Assembly (NCBI RefSeq): GCF_001723175.1
Contig: NC_064653.1
Coordinates: forward strand, 2,108,001-2,172,000
DNA from: Penicillium oxalicum
Taxonomy: Eukaryota; Ascomycota; Eurotiomycetes; Eurotiales; Aspergillaceae
Direction of reading: 5' to 3'
Length of the DNA stretch: 64,000 bases
Below, piece after piece: positions 78 through 46,501 of the stretch. Position 1 is the stretch's first letter, and each line of letters begins with the position of its first letter. The position numbers were made by a program, and so were the translations under genes. The notes under the pieces were generated by a model. The model did no database searches, was not told where the DNA came from, and saw only the letters and a list, made by a program, of their open reading frames with translations.

Positions 78-1783
78 ATGTCCGCTTGCCTCTCATTATC
101 CGAGTCAAAGGCCTGTCCCGCATGGAATGAATCCAGAATCTCAATCAATTCCAATCAATATGCCAACTTGTCAGTACTACGATCATCTGCGATGTGTAAA
201 TGACTGGGGCCAGCAGCTAACAGCATGGGTGACAGTCCGTGGTTGGACGGGGTCTCCAATCTCACCGCATTCGACGCCGCGCTGAGCAACTATGTCGCCA
301 ACACCTTCGTGACCTACAAGTATGTTGTGATTCGTCAGGGAACAATCGGGCTCGCTTCTTCTCCGGGGTCAGTTCCGTTAACGATGACTCTAGATATGTG
401 AACCAGCTAGGTTGCGGCGGTCTCAACAAGAGCGCCTTGACCGACTACTATGCCCAGTATACTATGAGTGTCATCTGCAGTGGCCTCGTTCAGAGCTCGA
501 TCAAGGATTGTGATCTGTCCACCGCCCAGTCCGAGCCATTGTGCGCCGAGACGTGCGCGCTTATGGCCACGAGTGAGCAGGAAATCATGGTCAACAAGCA
601 ACTGTGCCCGGATGTCAACAAGTCCTATATGGACGAGATTCGGTCGGACTTCACAATTTGCTCCAACCCGGCTGATTCACTGACCGGGAGCTGTGTCAAG
701 GGGGCCGATAACGAACCTGATAACTGTGGTTTCTCCTCCAACACCATCGGTCTCTGCACCTACTGCGCCTCTAGCTCGCCCAACTCTACCGACACCTGTT
801 GCTCTAGTTCCAACGCCTCGAATCGATGCAGCGGCGTCAGCATCCCCAGCTCCACTGTGACTTTACAGCCGATTATCACGTCCACAGTGACTGCTGCCGC
901 CGCCGCCGCGGCGCACAGTCACGATGGTCTCACCGGAGGGCAAATTGCAGGCATTGTAGTGGGGTGTCTCGTGGCCGCGGCCGTCCTTGCAGCTCTGCTG
1001 GCCTTCCTTTGTCTACGACGACGCCGCAGGTCTCAATCGAATGTCGTTCTGAACCGTCCCAATCCGCAGCGAAAAGGGGTCTCACCACCAATGCAGCAGC
1101 CCGAAAGCCCATCCGGGTACAATTTAGTTCCCGGCGGTCGTGTCGCCCGCATGTCTGCGTTACGTGAGGTTCCAAGCTCCTCTCCTGTCCCCTCTCAAAA
1201 ATCGCCACTCGTGCTCGGCACCGCAAAGTATAGCGATGAAGACTCCGAGGCGCTCGGGGCCAGCCCGGGGGCCATGTCGCGGCGAATTCCCCCCGTGACG
1301 GGGAAACGCCACGGCTCGCTCTCGAGTAACTCGGTGCTGGCTGGATTGGATAGCGATAGCTCCCCGTTATCTGGACAGCAATTCTCTTCTCCCGAGGGTT
1401 TCACCAGCGGTCAATCGGAGCAATTGTCGTATTTCCGAGACTACTACTCCGGGGACGACATTCAGCCCGGTGACAAGGTGGCCGCGCTGTGGGCATACTC
1501 TCCTCGGGCTGGGGATGAATTTGAGCTGGACCGGGGCGACATGCTGAAGGTGATTGGTATCTGGGATGATGGTTGGGCCACGGGTGTGCGTCTTTCCGAG
1601 CGGGCGGAGGATTATGACATTCGCCATCGCGAACAACGGGATAGTGGAGTGTCCAGTGGTTCGCGCCGTCCAGCACCGTCACCGGCACCTTCAGGAGAAA
1701 TCAAGGCATTTCCCTTGGTATGTGTTTGCCTTCCCCAGCATTGGCGGAAGATTTTTGAGGGAGGTGTACCGGCAGAGGACTAA
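78..1783 (+). CDS. SH3-domain single-pass membrane protein, 5' end probably beyond the window edge
   Basis: Exons read as 78-169, 224-319 and 394-1783, about 525 residues from the first ATG in view. The frame stays open upstream of 78 to the window edge, so the true start or a signal-peptide exon may lie outside. In order: a Cys-rich extracellular part with several N-glycosylation sequons, an Ala run, one membrane segment (about residues 243-268) followed by a run of arginines that marks the cytosolic side, a Ser/Pro-rich linker, and an SH3 domain (about 420-475, with ALWAY and a DDGWATG stretch). The tail contains the sequence IKAFPLVCVCLP, which I recall from fungal SH3 membrane proteins. 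The layout resembles yeast Fus1-like proteins, and a surface-sensing or polarity role is only inferred. The first intron is supported by its frame fit and by restoring a Cys-rich N-terminus. Confidence 0.8.
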
Positions 1784-2945
1784 GCCTGGACCGAATGACT
1801 CGGAATCTGGGGTCGACTCTGTGCAATTTCCAACCCCATCTTACGCCTTGACGACAGCGTGTACCGCATTCTCATTTCCGCACGCCAGCCCTGGGGGAGA
1901 GGAGCTTACAGTTTAACTCCTTCATGGTTGCCTCTGCCTCTTTTTTTTCCCTTTCTTTTTTGTTCTTCCTGCCTTCAACCAGGGCCTTCGCGGGACTCTC
2001 TGTATCCTTCTATCTTGCCCTTCGACGTCGGAAGGGTTGGATTTGTGTGCACGATCTCGCTGGTGATCTCCAAGCTGGTTGGGTGTGATGGCAGGTGGTG
2101 CTTGGTTGCGATTCTCTTTTCTGTGGTTCTGCGCTTTTCATTCTATATACCCTCAGGTTTCAAGGCGATTGACCCTCTCGTCATCCCAACTACTTCTCCT
2201 CGCTCCTTACCGGGTCCTTGGCGCCTTCTTTTCTCGTCTTTTCTTGATATTTCTTCTTACCCAAGCCTCGAGAGTTGCATCAACGGACCCTGTATCAGGC
2301 ACGCAAGATGCTCTTTTCCTCATCGATGAAGCTTGTGTAATATCTTTCCTATCTTTGCTGTGAACATCGGCATGTCGCCATTTGACTGGGCACTTGAGCT
2401 GGCCTGACCCAGATGTTGGCTTTCGAGAGTAGCCGATTACATATAGTGAATAATTCCCATAGCGTATGTACATCATCAGACGTGAACTACCTTGAAGGCT
2501 CGGCTTGCTCCAGATTCGAACGACCAGACAACCTTTCGAATAGCACCTGGGTTCCCTAATTCTAATCATAAAGACATCTCAGCCCCTAAGGATCGTGCAG
2601 GGTAGGCAAGTCTTGAGGGACTTCGAGATGCTGGCCCTATCCATCTTGTGAAGGATCTGGTACTAGAAACCGTAAGCTGAGGTGTCCGCGTCTCCCGCAT
2701 CACCCCACTTCCTCGGAGAGTCTCCTCGGCCTCGGCGTTTAGAGGGGAATCGGAGATCTCGATCGCGCCATCACGCACGTCCTACCCCAAAATACCTTGT
2801 TCATCCTATTCGATTGCATTCCGTGATTACCGTGTTGCTTAGAAATTCCAGATCGTCATTTTCCACCTGTCTTAAAGCACGCCTAAAGAAAAATCTCCCC
2901 GTTGGATAAACAAAACACTTTACTCTTCTCTGCCAAATCCCCACG
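1784..2945. other. Intergenic: 3' region of the SH3 gene and promoter of the GST gene
   Basis: No supportable gene. It holds pyrimidine-rich tracts (around 1935-1961) and open frames up to 156 codons with no recognisable protein character. Probably the long 3' UTR of the SH3 gene followed by the GST promoter. Confidence 0.5.
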
Positions 2946-3879
2946 ATGGCGTCCCCTTCACCCAAGATCATTCTCTATACCAACCGCAACTGTCCCTGGG
3001 CGCATCGTGCCCATGTCATACTCAAAGAACTTGGCCTCGAGTACGAGGAAGTCACTATTGACTTGAGTGTTCCTCGTGAACCATGGTATCTCGAAATCAA
3101 TCCTGTATGTGCAAGTCCTGCGAGGATATGAGCCTTTGTCAAGCTGCTTGAGCGAGTCAGACTCTAATAGGCACATTCATATTCTTGCACCACGTAGCGT
3201 GGTCTTGTGCCCAGTCTGTCCTATGACGGCACAGTTATCACCGAGTCTGGCATTGTCGCACAGTTCCTTGCCGACGCCCACCCGTCGCATCTCCTGCCAC
3301 CATCTGCACCGGCAGAGAACGCGCTCTACCGCGCGCGTCTGGCCTTCTTCGTCGATGCTTTCTTCAGCAAGGCTATACCGTCTCTTTTCGCCAGTATCAG
3401 ATCTGCTTCGGAAGAGGAGCGCGATACTGCCGCGGAGCAGATGGTGGCTAACATCGTGAAGGAGATCGAGCCTTTGCTTGCCGACACGGAGGGCAAGGGC
3501 CCATTCTTTGGTGGAAGCCACAAGTTGACTCTGGCTGAGGTATGATCGATGATCCCTCTCGGAATCCCTGTCCTTTGCTTTTGTTCCCTTTCTGCTTGCT
3601 GGCATGCCCCGTTCCAGGATCGATGGTAACATTTTTCTTTCTATTCTTTCTTTTCTTATGCAGGTCTTATCGGGATCTTTCTTGATTCGGATCCTGAGCT
3701 TCAGTAAGCCTGAGCATGGCTTGGTGAGTTCGAAGCTGCCTGGTCTGCTGGAGCAGCAGGCTCCACGCTTCAAACGGTGGATGGAGGCGACGTCTGCACA
3801 CGAGAGCGTGAACTTTATTTACAACGAGAAAGACGTCGCCGACAAGATGCGCGCCAAGTTTGCCCCCAAGCCACAGTAG
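2946..3879 (+). CDS. Glutathione S-transferase, omega-like
   Basis: Three exons, 2946-3104, 3198-3539 and 3664-3879, give 238 residues. The N-terminal thioredoxin-fold domain begins with a beta strand and the active-site motif CPWAHRAH (Cys16), which marks the Cys-type omega/Gto-like glutathione transferases rather than Tyr or Ser types. The expected cis-Pro loop (GLVPSLSYDG) and the glutathione-contact ES (TESGIV) follow. The C-terminal all-helical domain covers about residues 90-215. Family chemistry is glutathione-dependent thiol transfer, dehydroascorbate or glutathionyl reductase activity; the substrate cannot be told here. No targeting signal is visible, so it is probably cytosolic. Splice sites restore the family alignment across both junctions. 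Confidence 0.88.
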
Positions 3880-4941
3880 GCTGCGGAAAATCTGTGAGCA
3901 AGGAGGATTGTGGCTCTTCTGGGTAGCTCATGAGACCGACGGAATCATGTGCAGATCATCTTGTTTACAACGTTGGATGGAATAGGTAACAATATAACAA
4001 AGGTCGCGGAGCCATGCCCCCCGCGTCATCTAGTGTAATGACCACCAGAAACATCGTTCATGAGTCATCTGGCTACGATCTTGATGGTGAACACTTCTTT
4101 ATCTGTAGGTAGCATCGGCTTACTCGCAGGAACGGAGGTGGAAGCAGGCCATGACGGCACGACTGACGTGTCGGGTCGGTACCCGGTCGATTGTTTTACC
4201 ATGAAAATTGTCTACCTCCATAGATGCTCCTGCAGCGCAGGTACAGTGCTTCTCTCAATGCAGAGTACTACTGCTGTTGCATAGCCCCTTCAAGGTAGCC
4301 CAAAAATACAACTAGACATTTTCTGATTGCACCGACGCATAGATGTCACGCCCGCGTACACCGGCAACTGGCTGACGTTTGTTGGTGCCTTTTTAGAACC
4401 ACGCGACTGCTCCAGGCTGCTCAAATCTTGAGATAGAGGTGCCTAGAGGAGTATCCTTGCCTGTCTCCAAAATGAAGCTCTATATATCACGCGTACATCC
4501 GACTTCGTTTGGCATAACGTGTGGTGATTGGAAACTGCGCCTAGTCGGATACTTTCGGTTTCTTGATCCCAGCTTTGTTTATTCCTGAGGTACAGTAGGT
4601 GGTCATCACGTGCAAGCCATCCCCCCCCACCATCGCAACATCTGGGCAAACAACCCCTCCGCCTTGAACCCCCCCCCCAATTAACTTACCCACCCCCATT
4701 CTCCCCAACAATCCTGTGAGTGCGCCCCTGAATCGTATCTTTGTGAGGATGCAATATACTTGAATCCAGTGCGATCATACCAGATTTCTTCCGACGGATT
4801 GACTCGATCGCTTCTGCAATTCGAACTCTAGACGTTGGGAATGTCTTGGTTCCTGACCTCTCAGCCGCTGACATCGTGTGCCGCCTAGTCGACCTTCCTC
4901 CCCCCTTTTCCTTTCTCACCTCCAAAGAAAAAAAAACAACG
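3880..4941. other. Intergenic: GST 3' region and cofilin promoter
   Basis: No gene seen. Two poly-C tracts (about 4621-4628 and 4669-4679) lie roughly 300 bp upstream of the cofilin start, and a CT-rich stretch sits just before it (about 4895-4922), typical of promoters of highly expressed fungal genes. Confidence 0.5.
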
Positions 4942-5705
4942 ATGTCGGTCAGTTATACCGGTGGAGAGTTTCGAGATAATTCTCTGTGAGACTAACTTGT
5001 TCATTTCTATACAGCTCGCATCCGGGTATGATTCATTATCCTTCCTTCTCCGCTGCCGGTGGAATCGCGGCCAAGCCGATCGACTCTGATGTTGACAATT
5101 TGATCTCGCAGTGTTTCGGTTCAAGATGAGTGCTTGACAGCCTTCAACGAGTTCCGTCTGAGCAAGGGCAAGACCAAGTACATCATCTACAAGATCTCCG
5201 ACAACAAGAGGGACGTGGTTGTCGACGCCGTTGGTCACGACCAGGACTACGAGGTTTTCCGTGAGCAGCTCGCTGCCTCCAAGGACAGCCAAGGACGTCC
5301 TGCTCCCCGGTACGCTGTCTACGATGTCGAGTACGACCTCGGCGGTGGTGAGGGCAAGAGGTATGTAATCGTCAATCGCGAGCAGTCGCAGTCCACGTGA
5401 TTGTCAGTTCGGCTACTCACCTTGACTATAACTACAGAAGCAAGATCATCTTCATTTCTTGGGTCCCCAGCGACACCCCCACTCTCGTAAGTGACCACCC
5501 TGTGAATGTGCTTGGGCAAGAATTGCCTTTGGGTCAAGACTCCAGTACTGACCTCTACACGCAGTGGTCCATGATCTACGCCAGCACCCGCGAGGTCCTG
5601 AAGAATGCTCTCAACCTGTCTGCCTCCATCCACGCCGATGACAAGTCTGACATTGAGTGGAAGACCGTCCTTAGCGAGGCTAGCGGTGGCAAGGCTGGTA
5701 AATAG
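4942..5705 (+). CDS. cof1: Cofilin (actin-depolymerising factor)
   Basis: Five exons, 4942-4947, 5015-5025, 5112-5360, 5438-5486 and 5565-5705, give 151 residues, the normal size for a single ADF-homology domain. The protein severs and depolymerises actin filaments, driving turnover of cortical patches and rings. Family features seen: the MSLASGVSV start with a phosphorylatable N-terminal Ser, the KYIIYKI strand, the Y..YDVEY strand, the FISWVPSDTP segment, and the long actin-binding helix starting MIYASTREVLKNAL. The first two coding exons are only 6 and 11 nt, and all five junctions keep frame. The gene symbol follows the yeast homologue. Confidence 0.95.
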
Positions 5706-6728
5706 ATAAATTGCGCCGGCTGGGTCCGGGCTGCGTGATCGACGGGGGGGTTGTTTCCCGTCTCAATGGTACTATGGCCCATTCGAATTTATCCCCTTCT
5801 CTGCACACCATTCTCGTGTTTTACCCTTCTCTTGCGACTTTGATTCAGTAGCAATGCAAAGATTAACATGAATTTGGCCTCATCTTTGACTTTCTCCAAG
5901 AGCCCGCGGATTTGTGGCGGGTTTGGTTTTTCCCCCCAAGCCTAGTGCTCTGATATCTATCGCGCCGAGTTCTTTGTGGGCTCAGTGTTTCAATCTTGTA
6001 TTCATCCTTTTTATGTAGTGGGGTCACTTGGTAGTGGAAGACGTAGTTGCGAATGGATTGGTCAATTATTTGAAGCAAATGCTGATGATCGGATAGAGGC
6101 GGCATTCGCCTCGATGGCATTTTCAGTAAAAATGAGTGACCCTTCTTTTGAGAGCGTGAAGTCTAGTCCCTCAGAGCCTTGTATATCTTGCAGATGAGGC
6201 TCTTTCGCTGCCTGGGTTTTGCAAGCCTCGGTGTGAGATTGCTATCGAATCCGTGGTGAGCGCAGGGCGCTGTCGGCAGCCGACCGGAGGTATTATACAA
6301 GCAGTAGTTCAACTACTTCTTTTTGTTGGTTCAAGAATTTTGGAGAATGCTGAGGTAGTCTTTGTGCTTCAAGTGTAGCTCGTTCATACCACTTGGTTTT
6401 TGTGGTCAGCGCATTGACGAAGCATTGAGCGCCTCGATCGTCGTATGATGCTGCTGAGAATTGATGATGTCCCGTGGGAGCCCAGGTTGAGCGACGGCCC
6501 AATCAGCTGGCGGACAAACCAAGCCAGCGCTAGTCCGGAAACCTCGCGACTTTCCACCTCGAACCACCCGAACAACTTCAATTCTTCCCCATCCCACGAC
6601 CCTCCCCCTCCACTCTCTACTCCAGCCGAGTCGCCCTCGCCGCCAGACCTTTCTGGACCCGGACTTCTCCCTCTACCATCAATTGACCAATTTTCGACGT
6701 GGTGCTCCCACCTCCCACCTGCCGCACA
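5706..6728. other. Intergenic: cofilin 3' region and cox5 promoter
   Basis: No gene seen. The last 250 bp carry the CCAAT box annotated separately and a CT/CCTCC-rich leader before the cox5 start. Confidence 0.5.
6499..6503 (+). promoter_or_regulatory. CCAAT box upstream of cox5
   Basis: CCAATCA lies about 226 bp before the cox5 ATG. In fungi the HAP/AnCF CCAAT-binding complex controls many respiratory genes. Binding here is inferred from sequence and position only. Confidence 0.45.
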
Positions 6729-7530
6729 ATGTTTCTTCGCTCCATCGCTCGCGCTGCTCCTCGCAGCCCGGCCGCCATCCGTGCCGGTCCCATGGCCTCG
6801 CTGAACGCCATGCAGACCCGTGCTGCCTCTGAGCACGCTATTGCCAACCCTACTCTCGCCAGCATTGAGAAGCGCTGGGAGGCTATGCCCCCTCAGGAGC
6901 AGGCCGAGCTGTGGATGCAGCTCCGTGACCGCATGAAGGTCGACTGGCACCAGATGACCCTGCAGGAGAAGAAGGCCGGTATGTGATGTCTTACGAACTC
7001 CTTCAATCTCATATCAATTGCAAACCTGCCGAGTCACCGAGGCCATGAGATCGTCGGCTGCTCTCAACCTCCCTCCCATTCCGGTTGGTGCGATCATCGC
7101 TGACATCAGGATTTTCTTTGCCTTTTTTGTCCTCTAGCCTACTGGATTGCCTTTGGTCCTCACGGTCCCCGCGCCGAGGCCCCCAAGGGTGAGGGTCTCC
7201 GCATCTTCTTCAAGGTTGCTCAGCTCACCGCTGCCTCGGTCGCCGTCTTCTACGCCATCCACTACTTCGCCAAGCCCCAGCCCAAGACCATGTCCAAGGA
7301 GTGGCAGGAGGCCAGCAATGAGTACGCTCTGGTAAGTGCTCTTTCTCCCCAAGTGATTGATTGAGGGGACATGTGCACGGCTGCAGTTGTCCTTTTTCAT
7401 AGGTGGGATGGACATGCTGACTAAATCTCCTTTACAACAGTCCGAGAAGATCAACCCCATCCACGGCATCAGCAAGGATGGTTACGAGGGCCAGGGCTTC
7501 GTCCAGAGCCCTTCCGCCGACAAGTCATAA
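6729..7530 (+). CDS. cox5: Cytochrome c oxidase subunit V (COX4/COX5 family), mitochondrial precursor
   Basis: Three exons, 6729-6978, 7138-7331 and 7441-7530, give 177 residues. It is a nuclear-encoded subunit of respiratory complex IV in the inner membrane. The first ~33 residues are Arg/Ala/Ser-rich without acids, a matrix-targeting presequence. The matrix domain contains IEKRWEAMPPQEQAELW and DRMKVDWHQMTLQEKKA, both family hallmarks, then AYWIAFGPHGPRA and a single membrane helix (about 106-127), ending in a short intermembrane-space tail. Codon use is strongly biased to C-ending codons, as expected for high expression. atp2 lies 1.4 kb downstream on the same strand. Confidence 0.95.
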
Positions 7531-8932
7531 ATGGATTGTCTTCCTGATTTGAAGTGGTAAGCGGGACTCTGGCGCCCGAGTTGTCTGAAGCGAATCCAGA
7601 CTTCGCACGCCCGCATGGACTCGAAGATACCTATTCTTCGGATTACGATTTCCAGATCGCCAGTCATGTCTTTCCCGACACGCCTGCTGATGGGCATTCC
7701 GTCAACTCCCTTCATTGTCCTGTGTGGTTTTTTTTGTCCTTTGGCCCACAAGCATCCGAAAATGCGTGTATCCCGTACTGTGCTATAGTCAATGTATCTC
7801 CTTTGTAGCCATAGAGAAACAGATTGGACTGTTCTTTTTGTTTCATCTCTGCCGCAGCTCTCCTAGCCTCGCTGCCATCGCTGTCTTTGGAATATATGTG
7901 TAATTGGGATCTTATGTACGTAATGTGGCATATATCCACCTTTCTGACATAGTTGGTACTTGGGAGGTACTTCAGTTCCGTTGGTGCGTCCTGCTACCGG
8001 AGGGATTCGGAACCTGCAGAGCTGGTGCGGAGAACCCCTGTCCCAGCGCTCAAGCGCACAGCGACAGAGACGACCATTTCCAAGTGAATCGTGGCCAAGT
8101 TGAAATGGCGTCTACGATTGTGACAGAGAGGTCAAGCTGCTCAGAAATTGGGTCTCTGCCACTATGGAAGGCCATTTGAGCTTTGGACAGACCCGCTGGA
8201 ATGCGCGTTCGAGACACATCCCAGAAACGGAATGATGGGCGGTTAAAGGACCCCCCGAGGTACACGTCAGAGATTTTCTACAGGAGATGTACCTGGGGCA
8301 GAAGCAACACACGATCATCCTTGGACCCTCGATGAGAGAAGCTCAATGAATTGAATCCACGGTGGAGGATTTTAGAGTCAAGCCATTGGCCTAGATCATC
8401 GCAGCGTTCAAATGGTGTAGGGCATTGAATAAGCTACGCACATTATAGATCGATACCTGGGGGTTCTGCTCTCCCTGCATCCGGGTGCCAAGCCGACCGG
8501 TGAGAAGGGACGAGAATTGCCTGGCAACGGGAGAATGAGAAACCGGCATTGAAGACAGCAGACATTGAATCGCAGTCACTGTGAGAGAAACACTGAGATA
8601 GAATGGGTTGTAGAATCATATGGAGATCTATTTAAAGATCTTCTTTTTTCTTTTCAAATAAAAAACACTATACTCTGCGAGTAGAGAGAATTTGCGTTGA
8701 TAGACGCTTATAGTTGTGCTGGCCAACAGAACCTGGTCCCAATCGGTTCATCACGGGACCATCGGCAAAACCATCCCGGAAGGGTGTAGTGCGGTCCAGT
8801 TCCCGTGCCAGCGCGAGAAGGGAGGAAAGGTGAGTAGAGTCCACCAACCTCTTTCCTCTTCTTCCCTCTTTTCCCTTTCCCCCCATCCACACCTTTCCTG
8901 ATCCTTACACCTCGCTCTTCAACACATCCATC
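7531..8932. other. Intergenic: cox5 3' region and atp2 promoter
   Basis: No gene seen in 1.4 kb. A CCAAT box lies near its right end and a CT-rich leader (about 8851-8885) precedes the atp2 start. Confidence 0.5.
8739..8743 (+). promoter_or_regulatory. CCAAT box upstream of atp2
   Basis: CCAATCGG lies about 190 bp before the atp2 ATG, matching the spacing seen at cox5. A CCAAT-binding-complex site is inferred. Confidence 0.45.
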
Positions 8933-11095
<2,163 letters not shown>

Positions 11096-33515: not shown

Positions 33516-34988
33516 ATGTCAAAACCTGCTGTTGGATTTGTCGGCCTCGGAGCCATGGGCTTCGGTATGGCGACACACTTGGTCAAGGAGGGATATCCCG
33601 TCTCTGGCTTCGATGTATTCCCCGCTTCCGTGGAGCGATTCAAGGAAGCAGGTGGAACCCCGGCGTCTTCTCTGAAGGAGTCGGCCGAGGGAAAGCAATA
33701 CTACATTTGCATGGTAGCTTCAGCACCACAGGTGCAATCGGTGCTGTTTGGCGCAGATGGCATTGTCTCCGGTATGTGGGACGGACCGACGCAGTCCTGG
33801 TCGACATGATGTCGAAGCGAATTCAGTACTGATCCAGATGGTTACTGTAGCTCTTCCACAAGACGCAACTCTGATTCTCTGTTCCACCGTGCCTGCATCC
33901 TACGCACAATCCGTGGCTTCGGAGCTGCAATCGTGTGGCCGCGGCGACATTCACTTTATTGATGCTCCGGTGTCGGGCGGGGCCAAGCGCGCCGGTGATG
34001 GGACCTTGTCTATCATGGCGGGTGCATCGGATACTGCACTTGAGAAGGGTCAATTCCTTCTCGAGGCCATGTCGGATGCGAAGAAGCTGTACCTTGTCCC
34101 CGGGGGCGTGGGCGCCGGAAGTAATATGAAGATGGTCCATCAGGTTCTTGCAGGGATTCACATCCTCGGAGCCAGTGAAGCGATGGGATTTGCGGCTCAA
34201 TTAGGATTGGATGCGACCAAGACCGCAGAGGCTATCAAGAGCTCGGACTCGTGGACGTGGATGCACGAGAATCGACTGCAGCGCATGCTGGAGGAGGACT
34301 GGCATCCTGGTGCGAGTGCGCTGACGATCATCCTCAAGGACGTGGTAAGTTTCCGAGAGACTTCATATCCGCAAACCCTGCGAGACCTGGGACTTGTTGA
34401 CGCAGTTTGGGTTGATTCTCTCTCATTTTCTAGGGCATTATTACTACCTCTGCGCGTGAGAACCAGTTCCCGACCCCTCTTTGCTCCACGGCCGAGCAAG
34501 TCTATCTCTCTGCATTGCTGCAGGGTTACGGTCGTGTCGATGACTCCTCCATGGTCCGCCAATATTTCTCCGAGCCCATCACAAAAGTGACCAGCACCAA
34601 GACTCAGGACGAAACCACCGAAGCTCTGCAATTAGTCCTGGACGTGATGCAATTGACCAACCTCGTGGCAGCAGCTGAGGCGATCGCCTTTGCCAAATAC
34701 CTCCAGGTGGACCTGAAGCAGTTCTTCACCCTGGTCAGCGATGCGGCCGGTGCGAGTCGGCAGTTCATGACGGTGGGATTGGAAATGATCGAGAATCAGG
34801 TGGGGAAGAACTCGGAGACGATCGATCATGCCATCAGTCGCTTGGAGAAGGCGGTTCAAAAAGCGCGAGACCTGCACTGTCCATTGCATCTGGGTAACGC
34901 TACGATGGGTGTGCTGTTGATGGCGAAGCGAGCTGGACTCGGCGCCGAGGGAAGTACCAGCGTGGTGAAGATGTTTGGGTTCTCATGA
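33516..34988 (+). CDS. Threonate-dehydrogenase-like beta-hydroxyacid dehydrogenase with duplicated C-terminal domain
   Basis: Three exons, 33516-33771, 33851-34344 and 34434-34988, give 434 residues, long for the ~290-residue 3-hydroxyisobutyrate dehydrogenase family. The N-terminal Rossmann domain carries VGFVGLGAMGFGMA (Gly10, 12, 15), and the substrate loop reads FIDAPVSGGAKRA. The catalytic Lys179 lies in GAGSNMKMVHQVLAG. The KxxHQ.LAG.H form is the one of bacterial LtnD-type L-threonate/D-erythronate dehydrogenases, rather than the KxxxN of classical hydroxyisobutyrate enzymes. After one complete helical domain, a second copy-like helical domain (about 315-434, VDLKQFFTLVSDAAGASRQF) follows without its own Rossmann fold. 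The aldolase gene lies 0.8 kb downstream, same strand. Confidence 0.82.
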
Positions 34989-35769
34989 AAGTCACTTGGC
35001 TAGGATTACTATTACCCTTCTTTGTTTTTTGTTCATACAGTATTCAAAATCACCATATCCCTTTTCACTGTGTATGACTTCCCTTCTGTAGAGAATAAGT
35101 GAAATGAGCGACAAAAGAAGCAGAAACGGAGAAACCTTCATTTTTCTTGGATGGATTCCTAACGCATCAACCCCCACTTCTACCATCATCAAACCCTAAT
35201 TGGTCCATTCTCATGTCCGGCTCTTTGTTAACTACCTGTATGCAACCAAACATAGATGGGGCGGGAGTTTGAGCTAAGACCTGCAGGGTGTATTCCCATG
35301 CCTTGAAATACCCAGCCACTCGTGACTATCTTTTTCCCTAACCACCCTCGTGTGATCACTTCACCAGGTTGGTTCCATCGTCTTCTCCGAGCCTGGAATA
35401 AACCCGGTCGAAGCGTGGGGGTGAAGGAAGAAGGAAGAAGGAAGAGCGGGGGGGCACTGATTTTGACGTCAAGTCGCCCACTTCGGGTTTCCTCCGACAA
35501 AACTCTCGGAGATGATGCGATCCCGCACATGCTCGGGTAAAGCCAATGCGACCCGATGCGATGCGATGTTGCTCACAGCACGCGGGGTCAAGCTTATAAG
35601 TGTAGATCTGCAAGAGTAGAAGCAAGGATACAGTTTTTCATTCTCTTTTTTAGGGAAAAAAAGAAGAAGAGACGAAGTTCAAGGTTCAATAAACATTGCC
35701 GTTCCTTTCTCTCTCTCTCTATCTCTCTCTCTCTCCCCCCTCTGTCCACATCTTCCCCAATCAATCGCC
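34989..35769. other. Intergenic: between dehydrogenase and aldolase genes
   Basis: 0.8 kb, no gene. A TTATAAG element lies near 35593-35599 and a CT-rich leader (35705-35740) ends just before the aldolase start. Confidence 0.5.
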
Positions 35770-36630
35770 ATGCCTCTCACAGACAATCGCGCCCTGCGCA
35801 TTCTCGACCATGCCTCCGAGAACCACTACGGAGTACCCGCCATGTGCTGCTATAATGTAGAAGGCATTCTGGCCACCGTCCGCGCTGCCGAAGCCAAGCG
35901 CTCACCCGCCATGATCCTCCTCTTCCCCTGGGCCGTACACTACGCAGATGGGATCCTCGTGCACGCCGCCGCCGAAGCCGCGCGCAATGCATCGGTTCCC
36001 ATCACCGTCCACATGGACCACGCGCAAACGCCCGAGATCATCCGCCGGGCCGCCGACCTCGGCGGATTCGACAGTATCATGGTCGACATGTCACACTATG
36101 AAAAGGCGGAGAACCTGGCCTTGACGCGCGAACTGGTGGCCTATTGTCATGAGCGGGGGATTGCGACGGAGGCGGAGCCCGGGCGTATCGAAGGTGGTGA
36201 GGATGGAATTGCCGACACGGCGGATCTGGAGGGTCTGTTGACGACGCCGGAGGAGAGTCAGGAGTTTGTGGATACCGGGATTGACTGGTTGGCGCCGGCT
36301 TTTGGAAATGTGCATGGCGAGTACGGTCCTCGTGGGATCCAGTTGGAGTATGAGCGATTGCAGTCGATCAATCAGGCGGTGGGGAAACAGGTGCGGTTGG
36401 TGCTGCATGGAGCAGATCCGTTTACCAAGGAGATCTTTCAAAAGTGCATTGATTGTGGAGTCTCCAAGATCAATATCAACAAGGTCTTGAATAATGAGTA
36501 TATCAAGGTGCAGCAGGAAAAGGCGGGCAAGGTGCCGTTGACGACCTTGCTGGAAGAAGCTACCAATGCCATGCAGAAGGCGGTTGAGCGATGCATGGAC
36601 ATGCTCGAGTCGACTGGAAGATACCCGTGA
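35770..36630 (+). CDS. Class II (zinc) ketose-bisphosphate aldolase-like protein
   Basis: A single exon of 286 residues, the usual size of GatY/KbaY/FbaA-type aldolases. The catalytic Asp83 and Zn ligand His84 lie in HMDHAQ; the other two Zn ligands are His182 (GNVHGEYG) and His213 (LVLHGAD). The phosphate-binding end, GVSKINI, is also present. These enzymes cleave or form C-C bonds of phosphorylated ketoses. Next to an LtnD-like dehydrogenase, the most likely role is processing a four-carbon sugar-acid product to a triose phosphate. In plants and many fungi such a domain is fused to the dehydrogenase and a DUF1537-type kinase in one long protein; here it stands alone. Confidence 0.87.
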   Translation: MPLTDNRALRILDHASENHYGVPAMCCYNVEGILATVRAAEAKRSPAMILLFPWAVHYADGILVHAAAEAARNASVPITVHMDHAQTPEIIRRAADLGGFDSIMVDMSHYEKAENLALTRELVAYCHERGIATEAEPGRIEGGEDGIADTADLEGLLTTPEESQEFVDTGIDWLAPAFGNVHGEYGPRGIQLEYERLQSINQAVGKQVRLVLHGADPFTKEIFQKCIDCGVSKININKVLNNEYIKVQQEKAGKVPLTTLLEEATNAMQKAVERCMDMLESTGRYP

Positions 36631-37789: not shown

Positions 37790-40700
37790 TGTGTGAGTGC
37801 ACTTGATAGAAAGATTCTGCAGGAAGATGTGTGAAAACTCAATTGTCCAATCTCGTTGCCAATTCAAATGGACCACGTCGATGATAGTCAAACGAGGCGT
37901 CGAAGTTGAAAGATCCACGAAACAAGTACACAACGGCCGGCAGCGCTCCCCCCGAACGAACATGGCCGACATTTATAACAAGGGGTGAAACAACAAACGG
38001 GGGGGCGGGAAAGCTTGTCAAGAATGGAGGTCAGGGGGGGGAAAGGCTGGAATTTGGGGGACGCGTTCGCAAATGGTCAAGGATCAAAGATGCAGTCTGG
38101 AATGATCGACAGCAGGAATTCCCCGTCCATGTCCGTCAGCAAAGAATAAGCTTTTCAGATTGCAATTGTGCCGGAACACTTTCGCGCATGCAGAAGGCAT
38201 TTGTGTGAGCCAATTATAAGCTAAATAACGAGGACTAAGAACGGACTGGACGTGGAACATCGTGACCCGAATCGCACAGCTGAATGCTGCATCATTGATA
38301 GAGGCAGAAAGCCTCAGATTGGCATCTCACTAGGGAGGTGTTGTCCTGTCTTGATCGAACCCCTTTCTTGAACTGACATTCATCGTGCATTGAACAGACC
38401 GAAAGCTCAATATGGGTCACGGCCATGAAATGAAGCCATGAGTTCAAGTTAGTTCCATAGAGATTATAAACTCCTTAGCTTCACGTACCTATGAGCAAAT
38501 GCTGGATATTGTACTGAGCAAAGGGACTCGTGCCGAGGCGTTTGGCTGAAAGCATCCACACCCTGAGTAACCCAGGCAACAGATATCGTCCATGCATCAG
38601 AGCCCCGTACTGCTCTGCGAGCAAAGACAGACTTTAGTCTCATTGAACTTCAGGCGCACGGTTCGTAAGAATATGATCGTTGCCGGGTATATGATCCAGT
38701 TCTGACTGTTTGACTCAAGTTGGAGGGGCCCGCTGAACAAATTGCACATCGAGGCCGTTGAAACCACGATCCCCAAATGAAGACAGTAAGACTAGCGTGA
38801 GCCAATATGTTTCTGAGCAAGGCCGCTGCAAACAAAGTTAGGCTCAGGACACTAGAAGTCAGTCACATCGCAGTCTCTATATTGACCTGCTGTATGGAAA
38901 ATTAGGGTTCCAACCTGCAGATTGCCCGAGAACAAGCCGGGGGTTAAACCTCAAAGTTCATTTCCGCCTGAGATTATCGCTAGACCAATGCAAAGTTGAC
39001 CTACTTCCTGACTTATCAAGTCGTAAATCTGCATGAGCTATTTCAATAATACGTATCCGTGCTTCGGACATGTTGGGCTACGTGAACCGCACTGGCTGAA
39101 AGACTAGGAGGCGAGAAGCTAGGCATGTAATCCCGTATTTCTACAGCGCGTTATCACGGGCATCATTAGTTCTGCAAACGAGCTAAGCTACTCTTAGATT
39201 TTCAGAAAACATTTTGGAAGTACCTTTCGACGGCCCCTGAGCCCCTGTGTTCTTGATTTTAGTACTCGTGTCGTGACAATATTCTATAGTGCCGCTGTTG
39301 GCACCTGAGAATTATGGCGGCACCCTTAGGGGCCTTCAAATAGGCCTAGAAGCCTGCCCAATCCGGCTTTAAGCTAAGACGGATGAGTCAGCATGTTACC
39401 CCCGGCCTTCCACCGCCACACTTTTACATCACCGACACGCACTACTCCCTCCTGACCCGAAGCCCCCCTAGTCACATGATCTTTTATCCACTTCCCATCC
39501 TTTTCTCTTACTACCCTCCAAAAGTTGAAGCTATTCAGAAACCGTACACTAATCAATTCTAATTAAGGCACGTTCAAATGTTTATAATCTCAGAGATATT
39601 TACACTTTCCACTTACCTCAAGATAAATTTATTGCGCTTCTACTATATGTCCTCTCCCCTCTCCTTACTCAAAACACGACTCCTAGTATAAGGGCAAAAT
39701 CTATAGTAAGGAGAGGGATACAGGTAGGTTTGAATACCTTCAAGTTGATCTTGGGGCCGGAAGGGGCCTGGGGAACAACAAAGACAAAGGTGAGCTCTAG
39801 GTCATGTGACTAAGAGGACTCCGGGTAGTGTGTGCAGGTAATGAACACTCTGGTGGCAAAAGGGACGAAATGCTGACTCGCCCGTCTTGGCAGGGATTCA
39901 GGCTCCCATCCCGGTCCTGAGGCCCTCAGGGGTGCCGCCACAAAATTCAGGGGGTGCCAAGAGAACCACTCCTTGCAGATCTACATTATTTCTATTAAAC
40001 AAACATTTCTTCGGCATGGAATTGCGACTTAAACTTTTATGAGCATCCGCCAACACAATGATTCCAGCATTAAAGTGAGGAAGCACTTTTGTGAAAGTAG
40101 ATCAGGGTGGAATCGCCTGCTACAATTCTATACCGCCAATTTTACGTCGGGCTACTCCTTATGGAGATTAGAAAGTAGGTTTATCTTCAGTGAAGGCGGT
40201 CTTACATCCATGCCTTACGCCTAATGTATGCTAACAACTTTCTGAAATTTACGCTGTCACCAGAACGTGAAAGATAAAAGGGTCAGTATTGTGTTATTAG
40301 AAAAAAATTTTCTCTATGCAGCGGCGGATCAGAGCTACACGTAGCATTTTATTTTGGTTCAGATTTAAGACACTCTTACTGACCTAGACTAGACCGCGCA
40401 ATGAAGGGGAAATGTGGACATTATGGGTTTGTCAATATACTTGGAGCGCAGTAGGTCCTAGGTGCTTCTTTGCCACAATTTGTCCCAAATTGACGACAAG
40501 CAGGAGGTTTAAGTTTGGGGCGCCTATGCCGCCTTGGAATGGATCTGGATTATTTATCAAAGACAAGATATAGTTCCTCGTTCCATGGTCATTGGAGTCC
40601 TGGACCTGGATGATATCATAATCAGCGGTCAACATGAGGTGCAGGTGGAGGTGGTGCTCAACGCCGATTCAAGTCCCTCTCTTGAAAAGTAAACATGGAC

Positions 40701-40806: not shown

Positions 40807-43076
40807 ATGGCCATCGAGGCAAAAACATGTATCGATATGGACAACGTCGAAGGTCTATGCAAGAGCCTACTGTCATCTATTGACAAGTATCGTGCGACTA
40901 CGAAAGAACTTGATCGAGTCCGTGCCGTTGAGGCAGCTACAAACTTGACAAGGTCGTTAGAAAAACCGGCAGATGCGATATACAGGCTGTTCCTATCGGT
41001 ATGTCTGGTCCGTGAACAAGATTGGAGCAGCTCGCTGAGCCCATCACTAGCCAGCTATTCTTATGGCGGTCAAAGTAGCCTCGGACCTTGATATGTTCTC
41101 AATACTCTCCACGAGCAGCTCATCTATCACCTGCCAGGAGCTCGCGGCACGAAAAGGAGCAAGCGTTGAACTCACTGGTGGGTTCAAAATACCCGCTGAT
41201 TAAATGCATGACCCAAGATATTGATACACACTCTACGTTCACCAGAGCGGATCATGCGCGTTCTTGTGTGCGGTGGTTTCGCTGTGGAAAGAGGACCTGG
41301 CAAATACACAGCCTCAGCCATGTCGGACAGAATGACTGACAGGACGGTTCTTGGGCCTGTGAACTCACTGTAAGACCCCGTTTCCTGTCTCGCGACCTGT
41401 ACCAATTCTAACGGAGGTCATGGACTCAGCTTCATGGACTTCCTCCCGATTATTCACCAGACGCCGGAATTTCTCCAGAAAACAGGATACCGAAACCCCG
41501 AAGACCCAAAGAATGGGCCCTTTCAGTATGCCTATAAAACACCTCTGACGTGCTGGGACTGGCTAGCTCAGAACCCCCCAGTCCTCGATCGTTTTGATAC
41601 CTACATGGAAGGCCACAAAGCAGATTGTGCTCACTGGACCAGCTGGTTCCCCGTTCAGCATTTGTTACTGGATGATGTAGTGGCTGACGATCGCACCTTG
41701 CTAGTGGATATTGCTGGGGGCCGTGGTCATGACTTGATGGAGTTTAAACAGAGATTCCCTGACGCCCATGGTGCCCTCGTTCTTGAAGATCTGCCGGCTG
41801 TCATCGATGATATTCAGAGTCTGGATAGCGGGATCAAGCGAATTAAGCATGACTTTTTTCAACCTCAACCAGTTAAAGGTCAGTTCCCATTTACCCTTCC
41901 CCTTTGCGGCAATGCGTCTTAAGCAAGTTGCTTAGGCGCTCGCATCTACTATATGAAGCACATCATGCACGACTGGTCCGACGAAAACTGCAAAGTCATT
42001 CTTGGACACATTGCTGCTGCCATGGAGGAGGGATATTCAAAGCTCCTCATTGAGGACCATATCCTTCCGGACGAAAACGCCGCATATCTGGAGAGCCTGA
42101 TGGACATGATTGTGATGGTATGGTGTCCGGGTAACGAGCGCACCCGCCAGAGGTGGACAAAGCTTCTTGAATCTGTCGATCTGGAGGTTAAGAAGTTCTG
42201 GCTGCCGGATGGGTTAGGCCCAGGAATTGTTGAAGCAGAGTTAAAACAAAAGCCAAAAAGCCTCACATACAATGTCAGTGCAGAGGACACGCAGCCGATT
42301 GTTTACAGTCACATAAATGGGACCCTGGATGAGATACTCGATCGGTTCCAGGTGTCCGAATTATGCAAAGGCTGGCCAGTATACCGCGATGCGTCTGAGT
42401 GGAGCAACTACCGAGATTTATTCGTGAAGGATGGGGGATTCGTATGGACGAGTGAGTTGATTTTTATTCTGATCCACCGTCGCTGACGCGTCTGCTCTTG
42501 CGAGGAATGCATGAATTAACCCGGGCCGATCTATCAGCATGGAGTGGTGGTCTCAGTGTGGATGAGTTCATCAAGGTATCCAGAGAAGGACGTGAGCGCG
42601 GCGACTTCATTATGCACCGTGAGAACAGCACGCTCGTTGACCTGAACCCGGTCAAACTGCGGGCTGTGGGAAAGATGAAAGCGACCATCACACAGCGATT
42701 CAATATCCAAGGCTGCTCTGTCGACATTGAATGCGATTGTCGCTTCCAATTCTTCTGCAAGAAGATCCCATCGAAATCCGGTTCCTTGGAGTGGAAAACA
42801 CAGTATGTCAAATTGATATACGAAAAGGACAAGATGATCCCAGTCGATGGCCAGTCTGTGCCCAAATTTGATGAAGCTCAGCTCAACCTGTATCCGGAAG
42901 GATACCGATACCTTGGGCTTGCACAATCGACACTAGGGCATCAAGTCCTCCCTGGGCTTCCAACCTTGAACAATAAGGCTTTTTTTGAGATGTACGACGC
43001 TATCAATCTGTGGCTTCAGGGTGATGATATTGGGAGACTGCTGGGAGTGCCTGAAACAAGACTGGAGAGGCGCTGA
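40807..43076 (+). CDS. O-methyltransferase fused to a SnoaL/NTF2-like domain
   Basis: Six exons, 40807-40998, 41051-41177, 41246-41369, 41430-41878, 41936-42451 and 42505-43076, give 659 residues. Residues 1-~405 form a plant/fungal class-2 O-methyltransferase: N-terminal dimerisation helices, a winged-helix region ([23 protein letters not shown]), the SAM-binding [10 protein letters not shown] (about 238-247), and the catalytic His309 in [12 protein letters not shown]. From about 419 a second domain begins ([20 protein letters not shown], then [15 protein letters not shown]), the start of a SnoaL-like, NTF2-fold domain, continuing in exon 6. No stop or Met separates them. Exon 6 starts after a GAG acceptor, so that junction is the weakest. 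The start could also be 40837. Substrate unknown; secondary metabolism inferred. Confidence 0.75.
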
Positions 43077-44662: not shown

Positions 44663-45647
44663 CTACGCGGCGAGCATCTTCTTGGTCTCGGCGATAGCGC
44701 GGCCAGGGTTCAGGCCCTTGGGGCAAGTCCGCGTGCAGTTCAGGATGGTGTGGCAGCGGTACACGCTCATGCTGTTGTCGAGAGCAGCCTTGCGCTCAGC
44801 AGTCTTCTCGTCACGAGAGTCAACCAGCCAGCGGTAAGACTGGAGCAGGATGGCGGGACCGAGATACTCCTCCTGGTTCCACCAGTACGAGGGGCAAGAA
44901 GTCGAACAGCAGGCACAGAGGATGCACTCGTAGAGACCGTCAAGCTTCCTACGGTCCTCGGGGCTCTGGCGGTTCTCAAGACCCTGCAAATATAGATATA
45001 TCAGTGTCTGTAAAGCTGGCATATCCTCGACTTCTCGTGGGGCAGCTGACTTACATCAGGGCTGGGAGTATCACGCTGAAGGTAAGGCTTGATAGACTTG
45101 TACTGCTTGTAGAAGAGAGTCAAGTCCGGTACAAGATCCTTGACGACGTAGGTGTGCGGCAAAGGGTAGATGCGAGACTCCTTGGTGGTCTCGGTGGGAA
45201 TACGGCCTGTTGAAAACGCATTAGATGGGCTGTATGCAGGTAGACGATTCCCCCATGAGACAGCAATTGCGACGATTCGAAAGGTGGGTGAAAGCACATA
45301 CACAAGCAAGCCAAGGTGTTGACACCGTCAATGTTCATGGCGCAGGAACCGCAGATACCCTCACGGCAGGATCGACGGAAAGTGAGAGTTGGGTCAAGCT
45401 CGTTCTTGATGCGAATAAGAGCATCCAGCATCATGGGACCGGTTTTGTTCAGGTCGAGCTCATACGACTGCATGGTGGGCTTCTCGGTCGGGGTGTCCGG
45501 GTTCCAGCGGTAGATCTTGAAGGTCTTCATCTTGGGGGTCTCGGAGACATTGCTGTCGACGGTCGCATAGGTGCGAGCGAAGCTGGCTGGGCGGAACAAA
45601 GGCCGCGACGCAGCGAAGAGTCGAGAAGTGGTGCGGAGGGAAGCCAT
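44663..45647 (-). CDS. sdhB: Succinate dehydrogenase iron-sulfur subunit, mitochondrial precursor
   Basis: Three exons in transcript order: 45647-45302, 45206-45055 and 44983-44663, giving 272 residues. It is the electron-transfer subunit of respiratory complex II, passing electrons from succinate oxidation to ubiquinone. The presequence (about 1-28) is rich in Arg and Ser. All three clusters are complete: 2Fe-2S (Cys94, 99, 102, 114 in [10 protein letters not shown] and LACLC), 4Fe-4S (Cys186, 189, 192, 196 in [11 protein letters not shown]), and 3Fe-4S (Cys243, 249, 253 in [15 protein letters not shown]). The first intron splits the codon right after Leu115, beside the 2Fe-2S site. A CCAAT box lies about 257 bp upstream. 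Confidence 0.97.
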
Positions 45648-46501
45648 GACGGACGAATGGAGGATTATGGAAAGGCGAGTTCCACCCGGAGGGAACTTTT
45701 TCGAGTTGAGTTGTTGTCAATTTATGCCAGTAAGCGGCGGCGTGGTGATCGTTCAGGAGATCAAAAGACAGGTAGAGCCGATATGAGGCTTGAAGTCACG
45801 ATGTGAGAAGAGGTGACGATGGCGACAAATTGAGATCAAGGAGATCTGGGCATACTAACCTCGGGTTCGAGAGTCGGCAAGTGGCTGAGTCAGCTGACCT
45901 GAGCCAATCATGGCGGGGCTAATTACAAGCGTCGGGCGGACACGGGCGTCGCCTGGATTTCAAGGTTGCGAGGGCTCGTGATGCTAATGGGTGATTGCCG
46001 CTGTGAGATTGACGATCGATTGGTACCTTTTGAGTTCATGTGCACTTGTATTATTCATCTTCATGTGTGCAGCACATAATATACCCTCAGGGTGGTATTG
46101 ATCATTAAAGAATCATTACATTGAAGTGCCAAATAAATGCAAATTGATTGAATCGATTCTATTTTGAATCGATTCGGTAGGGACATAGGTATCGGATTCA
46201 CTTGGTACATACAGAAGGTCCAATAGGTATTATTACGCTGTCTCGGCCCATTCTTCCTCCACAATCTCGGATCAGGCAGCCAGGCAGACACTGTGGCAAG
46301 CTCCTCATCTCAGTGGTTGCCGAGCATATTTCTTCGGAAGTGATCGCGGATGACATGTGGCCCACTCCAACTAAGCAGATCTCCCATGCTAGACAACTCA
46401 ACCCGAGACCCTGCTGCTTTGGGAAAGCCAAAGCATTGCCGCCTTGATACGAAGTTTGCTCGGACACACAGTGTGCTGTGGATGGACTGCCCATCACTTC
46501 A
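45648..46501. other. Intergenic: sdhB promoter and NmrA-like gene 3' region
   Basis: 0.85 kb, no gene. The sdhB-proximal part is GC-rich with a CCAAT box; the part near 46050-46200 is AT-rich with TATT/GAATCGATT words. Confidence 0.5.
45904..45908 (+). promoter_or_regulatory. CCAAT box upstream of sdhB
   Basis: CCAATCA on the + strand, about 257 bp before the sdhB ATG, so it is inverted relative to the gene. CCAAT boxes work in both orientations. Binding is inferred. Confidence 0.4.

Follow-up and report, generated by a model that had tools for sequence, protein, structure and literature searches.

The window, by which we mean the whole 64-kb stretch of Penicillium oxalicum DNA analysed here, contains on its forward strand a gene in which a complete O-methyltransferase runs in frame into a second, likewise complete, NTF2-like domain. 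The gene and its principal features are as follows, with positions given in the window and equivalences to the gallate decarboxylase AGDC1 taken from alignment.

40807–43076, plus strand: fusion gene, a spliced open frame of six exons and 648 residues with GT–AG introns
40807–40998, 41051–41177, 41246–41369, 41430–41878, 41936–42451 and 42538–43076, plus strand: exons of the fusion gene
40807–42261, plus strand: O-methyltransferase part, residues 1–406, with a dimerisation domain (57–136) and a SAM/catalytic domain (236–376)
41968–41970, plus strand: H309 of the HDW motif, the catalytic base position of class I O-methyltransferases, aligned against LepI
42244–42279, plus strand: junction, the methyltransferase tail KQKPKS (401–406) followed directly by LTYNVS (407–412)
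42262–43073, plus strand: predicted AGDC1/PPP2-type decarboxylase part, residues 407–648, with an NTF2/SnoaL-like fold and containing intron 5
42373–42390, plus strand: W444, R448 and D449 (AGDC1 W35, R39 and D40)
42452–42537, plus strand: intron 5 as corrected here, splitting T470, with W471 next (AGDC1 T60 and W61)
42615–42623, plus strand: H496-R497-E498 (AGDC1 H86-R87-E88)
42807–42821, plus strand: V560, L562 and Y564 (AGDC1 Y146, V148 and Y150), a PPP2-type pocket
42924–42926, plus strand: Q599 (AGDC1 Q192)

The junction lies within the single exon 5 (41936–42451), where the frame is open from the GIVEAEL motif (residues 394–400) into the second domain and both other reading frames contain stops. 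Neither an in-frame stop nor a Met occurs between residue 400 and the second domain, and the upstream in-frame Mets all lie inside the methyltransferase. Chance is excluded for both parts, since the second matches solved proteins with E values of 6.7e-77 and 2.7e-71 and the first with 3.8e-53. As sequence, the in-frame fusion is nearly certain, and the initial annotation, which had described the parts as fused in frame without stop or Met between them, was right on this point. Its 659-residue model was reproducible, but the acceptor chosen for intron 5 was wrong: an intron at 42452–42504 inserts additional residues, [18 protein letters not shown], whereas the acceptor at 42537 yields a 648-residue protein with WTTWSGG, in agreement with the WTTWSG of both solved relatives (7jmr and 6w54). 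The acceptor at 42537 restores the catalytic Thr-Trp pair, which is aligned in the solved relatives; the Thr and Trp of WTTWSG are kept in 113 and 118, respectively, of the 119 relatives listed. By eye, the exon edges of a decayed decarboxylase copy on contig C7 match this intron in both position and phase.

The first half matches PF08100 (Dimerisation; residues 57–136, 39.2 bits against a cut-off of 25.6) and PF00891 (Methyltransf_2; residues 236–376, 73.2 bits against 22.3) in Pfam, and H309 is present at the catalytic position, as expected from the O-methyltransferase identity and catalytic His assigned in the initial annotation. Its nearest solved relatives are MpaG' (8xte, E 3.8e-53) and LepI (E 4.1e-50). 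Both H309-D310-W311 and a glycine-rich loop, [11 protein letters not shown], occur in the sequence; we take the HDW His to be the catalytic base, and the loop to be the SAM loop, of class I O-methyltransferases. A LepI-type pericyclase was rejected, since LepI carries Arg-Asp where the fusion keeps His309-Asp310, and we assume this replacement of the catalytic His-Asp to be a pericyclase feature. Given that His309 of HDW is kept, unlike in LepI, the plain reading of the sequence is that the first half is a working class I O-methyltransferase. Three of the 45 columns with ≥95% conservation across 59 methyltransferases differ in the fusion, the median row differing at none, where the columns were picked on the same 59 rows that gave the median. 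In a tree of 73 rows the fusion methyltransferase is sister to P0001, with support of 100/98.

The second half matches PF13577 (SnoaL_4; residues 430–539, 33.9 bits against a Pfam cut-off of 24), in line with the SnoaL-like domain described at the outset, so that the missing SnoaL-family match named there as a refutation did not materialise. SnoaL_4 was the sole SnoaL-type model up to E 1, and no cyclase-specific model matched in that range. At E ≤0.001 the only solved relatives are PPP2 (7jmr, E 6.7e-77) and AGDC1 (6w54, E 2.7e-71), with 219 query residues aligned, both of which the available text of PMC7862292 describes as cofactor-free non-oxidative decarboxylases and stand-alone trimers. 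In that description AGDC1 works with an H86-D40 dyad and a W35/W61 clamp, with R39, T60, Y150 and Q192 serving the substrate, E88 the central potassium and R87 pairing with D124/D126 (PMC7862292). All nine mechanism residues (AGDC1 W35, R39, D40, T60, W61, H86, E88, Y150 and Q192) are present in the fusion, and since each is kept in 113 to 119 of the 119 relatives listed, they mark the family. Across the 17 positions compared, 13 are identical to AGDC1; among the differences, Y146V and V148L agree with PPP2, whereas E49D and D124E do not. At the potassium and trimer positions E498, R497 and D536 are present, and AGDC1 D124 corresponds to E534. The position of Y146 is occupied by V in 90, K in 9, Y in 7 and I in 6 of the 119 relatives listed, and in PPP2 the Y146V difference has been tied to poor use of gallate and good use of protocatechuate (PMC7862292). 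Only one of the 57 columns at least 95% conserved in 118 relatives differs in the decarboxylase part, so that, with conserved columns kept in both halves, the protein does not look like one in decay.

These comparisons argue strongly that the second domain is an AGDC1/PPP2-type non-oxidative phenolic-acid decarboxylase, and judged by its residues the pocket is of the PPP2 (protocatechuate) type. The 'cyclase or isomerase-type step' first attributed to it does not fit a domain that has nine of nine mechanism residues and is AGDC1/PPP2-type by sequence. We regard it as rather unlikely that the fusion is real and its second domain performs dehydration, cyclisation or isomerisation in a specialised pathway: the fold and His-Asp dyad are common to scytalone dehydratase and LinA (PMC7862292) and Pfam places the domain in SnoaL_4, but both solved relatives by sequence are non-oxidative decarboxylases, and the Trp clamp, Thr, Gln, Arg and Glu of the decarboxylase mechanism are all kept.

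The architecture appears to be rare. A search of 5.8 billion clustered sequences with the whole protein (659-residue model) returned 92 matches among 7,998 scored candidates, for none of which did the precomputed Pfam column list PF00891 together with PF13577; query coverage never exceeded 61%. When the second part was used as query against proteins of ∼356–1,134 residues, three of 464 candidates matched, and no methyltransferase domain was listed for any of the three. The second domain by itself has many relatives: in a search confined to proteins of ∼132–420 residues, 743 of the 920 candidates reached E ≤0.001, and 120 of these were listed. Because the searches depend on shared five-residue words and on predicted proteins, the absence of fused relatives is not proof. 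The environmental record P0093 is 98% identical to the fused decarboxylase domain and covers exon 6, not the junction; P0194 (157 residues, from a 7,250-base environmental contig) is the closest after it at 78%, with tree support of 100/99, and is likewise confined to exon 6. Both records are therefore silent on whether the fusion exists there. Titles and abstract openings, in a literature search with most subscription journals outside its scope, named no published methyltransferase–decarboxylase fusion. Both families are known; their combination looks new, as far as searched.

Four protein searches of the genome (30.8 Mb, 17 contigs), in which only the best candidates were scored, turned up no intact AGDC1-type domain apart from the fused one; these searches did not list the decayed decarboxylase on contig C5 described below. 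They were used in place of a PF13577 family search, which returned no match and missed even the fusion gene. That the two parts are separate products, made from independent transcripts or an internal start, is very improbable: none of the 92 and none of the 3 relatives returned carries both parts, as separate proteins would have it, yet there is no in-frame stop, and no Met from residue 400 to the second domain, to divide them. An assembly error, or a strain-specific accident without function, would explain why the architecture was met in one genome only and why P0093, at 98%, spans exon 6 but not the junction. We consider this extremely improbable, however, as nearly all conserved columns are kept in both halves and the genome searches just described found no other intact AGDC1-type domain.

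Evidence on the origin of the fusion comes from its junction and from a related gene pair elsewhere in the genome:

contig C5, locus L023 (G000 C5:12001–21900), 1112–9458, near the contig end: FMO, O-methyltransferase, decayed AGDC1-type decarboxylase and P450

Where the stand-alone protein P0094 starts M-TYN..TQP, the fusion reads S406-L407-T-Y-N-V..TQP, placing Leu407 at the Met position of its relatives; a start of the form M..YN[IV]...TQP occurs in 25 of the 119 relatives listed. Stand-alone methyltransferases continue for 1–25 residues past an EAEL-like motif (located in 42 of 59 rows) and the fusion for six (KQKPKS). A tail of ordinary length and a Leu at the Met position together suggest that two proteins were joined almost end to end, with almost no residues of intergenic origin apparently needed at the junction.

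The C5 methyltransferase paralog has its own stop and is 63–68% identical to the fusion over residues 148–402, and 40–47% in the N-terminal exons. The same strand carries, about 0.8 kb further downstream, the remains of a decarboxylase gene interrupted by stops and frame breaks. Plain tblastn gave this remnant E values of 0.01–0.09, and with the fusion's domain as query its frameshift-aware score was 98, against a mean of 33.4 (sd 4.1, maximum 56) for shuffled sequence, none of 300 dinucleotide shuffles scoring as high. The remnant exceeded the shuffle maximum with all seven queries (narrowest, 60 against 58), and the best other place in the rest of the C5 locus, searched on both strands with three queries, scored 42–46. 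Introns 1–4 fall, by eye, at the same places in the fusion gene and the C5 paralog, and methyltransferase introns shared by both copies point to a merger of genomic DNA, not a processed copy. The simplest account is a neighbouring gene pair present in two copies, of which one became fused and the other decayed; we infer this rather than observe it, because the fork uniting the methyltransferase groups of the two copies reaches only 87/54 support in the tree of 73 rows.

Two further genes belong to these families. Locus L024 (G000 C7:674001–683000) contains at 4817–4369, on the minus strand, a decayed AGDC1-type decarboxylase gene that is interrupted by stops and, as judged by eye, lacks a splice acceptor at the expected place; its best match is P0106 from Aspergillus violaceofuscus. 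A second C5 O-methyltransferase (C5:23392–24096), ∼5 kb past the first, is 37% identical to that of the fusion.

The genomic settings of the two loci were also compared. The C5 pair is flanked by an FMO and a P450, and the FMO next to it has the decarboxylative vanillate 1-hydroxylase 8x38 as its best solved match (E 5.3e-64). No counterpart of the C5 FMO or P450 was detected by tblastn in the 64-kb window. A biosynthetic cluster around the fusion gene was rejected, there being no synthase, P450 or FMO among the 30 of 145 window ORFs (listed at ≥110 residues) that were compared with Pfam. The initial annotation had reported no polyketide or peptide synthase, which holds for the ORFs scanned; its suggestion that the gene marks the edge of a lost cluster is unsupported in the scanned part of the window, and the nearest cluster-like set is the one on contig C5. 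Named Pfam matches in the 30 ORFs were to a dehydrogenase, an aldolase, a succinate dehydrogenase subunit, an amidase, GH92, an alpha-amylase and DUF7582, together with one SH3 match below its cut-off. The succinate dehydrogenase iron–sulphur subunit (44666–45716, minus strand) was considered as a protective second copy conferring self-resistance and rejected; a family search of the genome for its 2Fe-2S domain gave a single match, which led us to take it as a housekeeping gene. Frames resembling 3-hydroxyisobutyrate dehydrogenase and class II aldolase lie on one strand at 33718–36627, perhaps as one multidomain gene. An Rfam search of the window gave no match. Upstream of the fusion gene, the 'foldback-bearing AT-rich stretch' noted earlier is only weakly AT-rich (50–59% in 300-base bins over 3 kb, against ∼49% for the window), whereas the foldback element of the description is matched by two imperfect, widely spaced inverted repeats. 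These are nested at 39373–39891, ∼1 kb from the gene, with arms of 22 and 28 nt that are 82–86% complementary and 316–475 nt apart, possibly an old foldback element.

We propose, with moderate confidence, that the locus is a single gene for a bifunctional decarboxylase–methyltransferase, derived from merged neighbouring genes and acting on a protocatechuate-type acid and then on catechol. An O-methyltransferase gene would have merged with a downstream AGDC1/PPP2-type decarboxylase gene on the same strand, introns being kept. The C-terminal domain would remove CO2 from a protocatechuate-like 3,4-dihydroxybenzoic acid, using the H496-D449 dyad, the W444/W471 clamp and, at the centre of a trimer, potassium bound by E498, after which the N-terminal domain would O-methylate a hydroxyl of the released catechol. 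The route would thus run from protocatechuate through catechol to guaiacol or a substituted analogue. Fusion would hold both enzymes close together at a fixed ratio, so that the reactive catechol could be capped as it forms. We infer both the coupled reaction and its order, decarboxylation before methylation being the likelier because the known active site binds both free hydroxyls.

Both activities could be real and yet methylation precede decarboxylation, or the substrate be a bulkier phenolic acid from specialised metabolism instead of protocatechuate, which we think unlikely. In favour, the closest solved relatives of the methyltransferase, MpaG' and LepI, are in our reading specialised-pathway proteins, and the decarboxylase relatives vary at the Y146 position among the 119 listed. 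Results from A. niger also oppose a role in gallate catabolism (PMC10512348). Against such substrates, the AGDC1 pocket is described as a sealed cavity with hydrogen bonds to free hydroxyls, which disfavours large or pre-methylated acids (PMC7862292). AGDC1 accepts gallate and protocatechuate and, in the available text of PMC5605622, refuses 3-hydroxy-, 4-hydroxy-, 2,3-dihydroxy-, 2,4-dihydroxy- and 2,5-dihydroxybenzoate.

The A. niger data also bear on the physiological role of the proposed decarboxylase–methyltransferase. In a gallate/tannin repressor mutant a COMT-type methyltransferase gene was the most induced (5,713-fold) and an AGDC1-like gene rose 96-fold, both within the top 20 (PMC10512348). 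Like the FMO beside the C5 pair, this induction would speak for a phenolic acid as substrate. Against it, growth on gallate survived deletion of the AGDC1-like gene or of the cluster containing the COMT-type gene, and the conclusion drawn in the available text is that in A. niger gallate does not undergo direct decarboxylation to pyrogallol (PMC10512348). The word methyltransferase is absent from the accessible portion of a review of aromatic pathways in A. niger published in 2025 (PMC12388069). The enzymes may therefore function in detoxification or specialised metabolism and not in catabolism.

The linker between the methyltransferase and decarboxylase domains of the fusion is ∼15 residues long. 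Relatives of the O-methyltransferase are dimers. A chain that pairs a dimer-type domain with a trimer-type one (PMC7862292) could not make both kinds of contact by itself and would have to assemble into a closed 6-mer as a minimum, or into some larger cage or network. That the fusion is a natural self-assembling two-enzyme particle, holding toxic catechol between its two active halves, is an improbable extension of the proposal.

If the proposed function is true, one polypeptide would suffice to convert a phenolic acid into a methoxyphenol. The fused pair would name a partner step for the stand-alone fungal AGDC1/PPP2-like proteins, whose known roles are few. Together with the decayed C5 pair beside a hydroxybenzoate-type monooxygenase, it suggests that some of these proteins work with an O-methyltransferase on phenolic acids. 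The two loci would also constitute a before-and-after example of gene fusion inside one genome.

Compared with known systems, the second domain shares its family, over 219 aligned residues, and the dyad, Trp clamp, Arg, Thr, Glu and Gln with AGDC1 of Blastobotrys adeninivorans (6w54) and PPP2 (Pea pathogenicity protein 2) of Madurella mycetomatis (7jmr), and its pocket resembles that of PPP2. AGDC1 and PPP2 are stand-alone, whereas the fused domain sits behind a methyltransferase without a start of its own. MpaG' and LepI, the closest solved relatives of the N-terminal part, are likewise stand-alone chains and presumably enzymes of specialised pathways acting on other molecules. The nearest relative of the first half, P0001 of Aspergillus avenaceus (406 residues, 66% identity), stops six residues past its EAVL motif without a second domain, where the fusion continues into the decarboxylase. 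The C5 pair has the same two families in the same order and on one strand, with the methyltransferase intron places of the fusion, but is unfused, its genes ∼0.8 kb apart and its decarboxylase broken.
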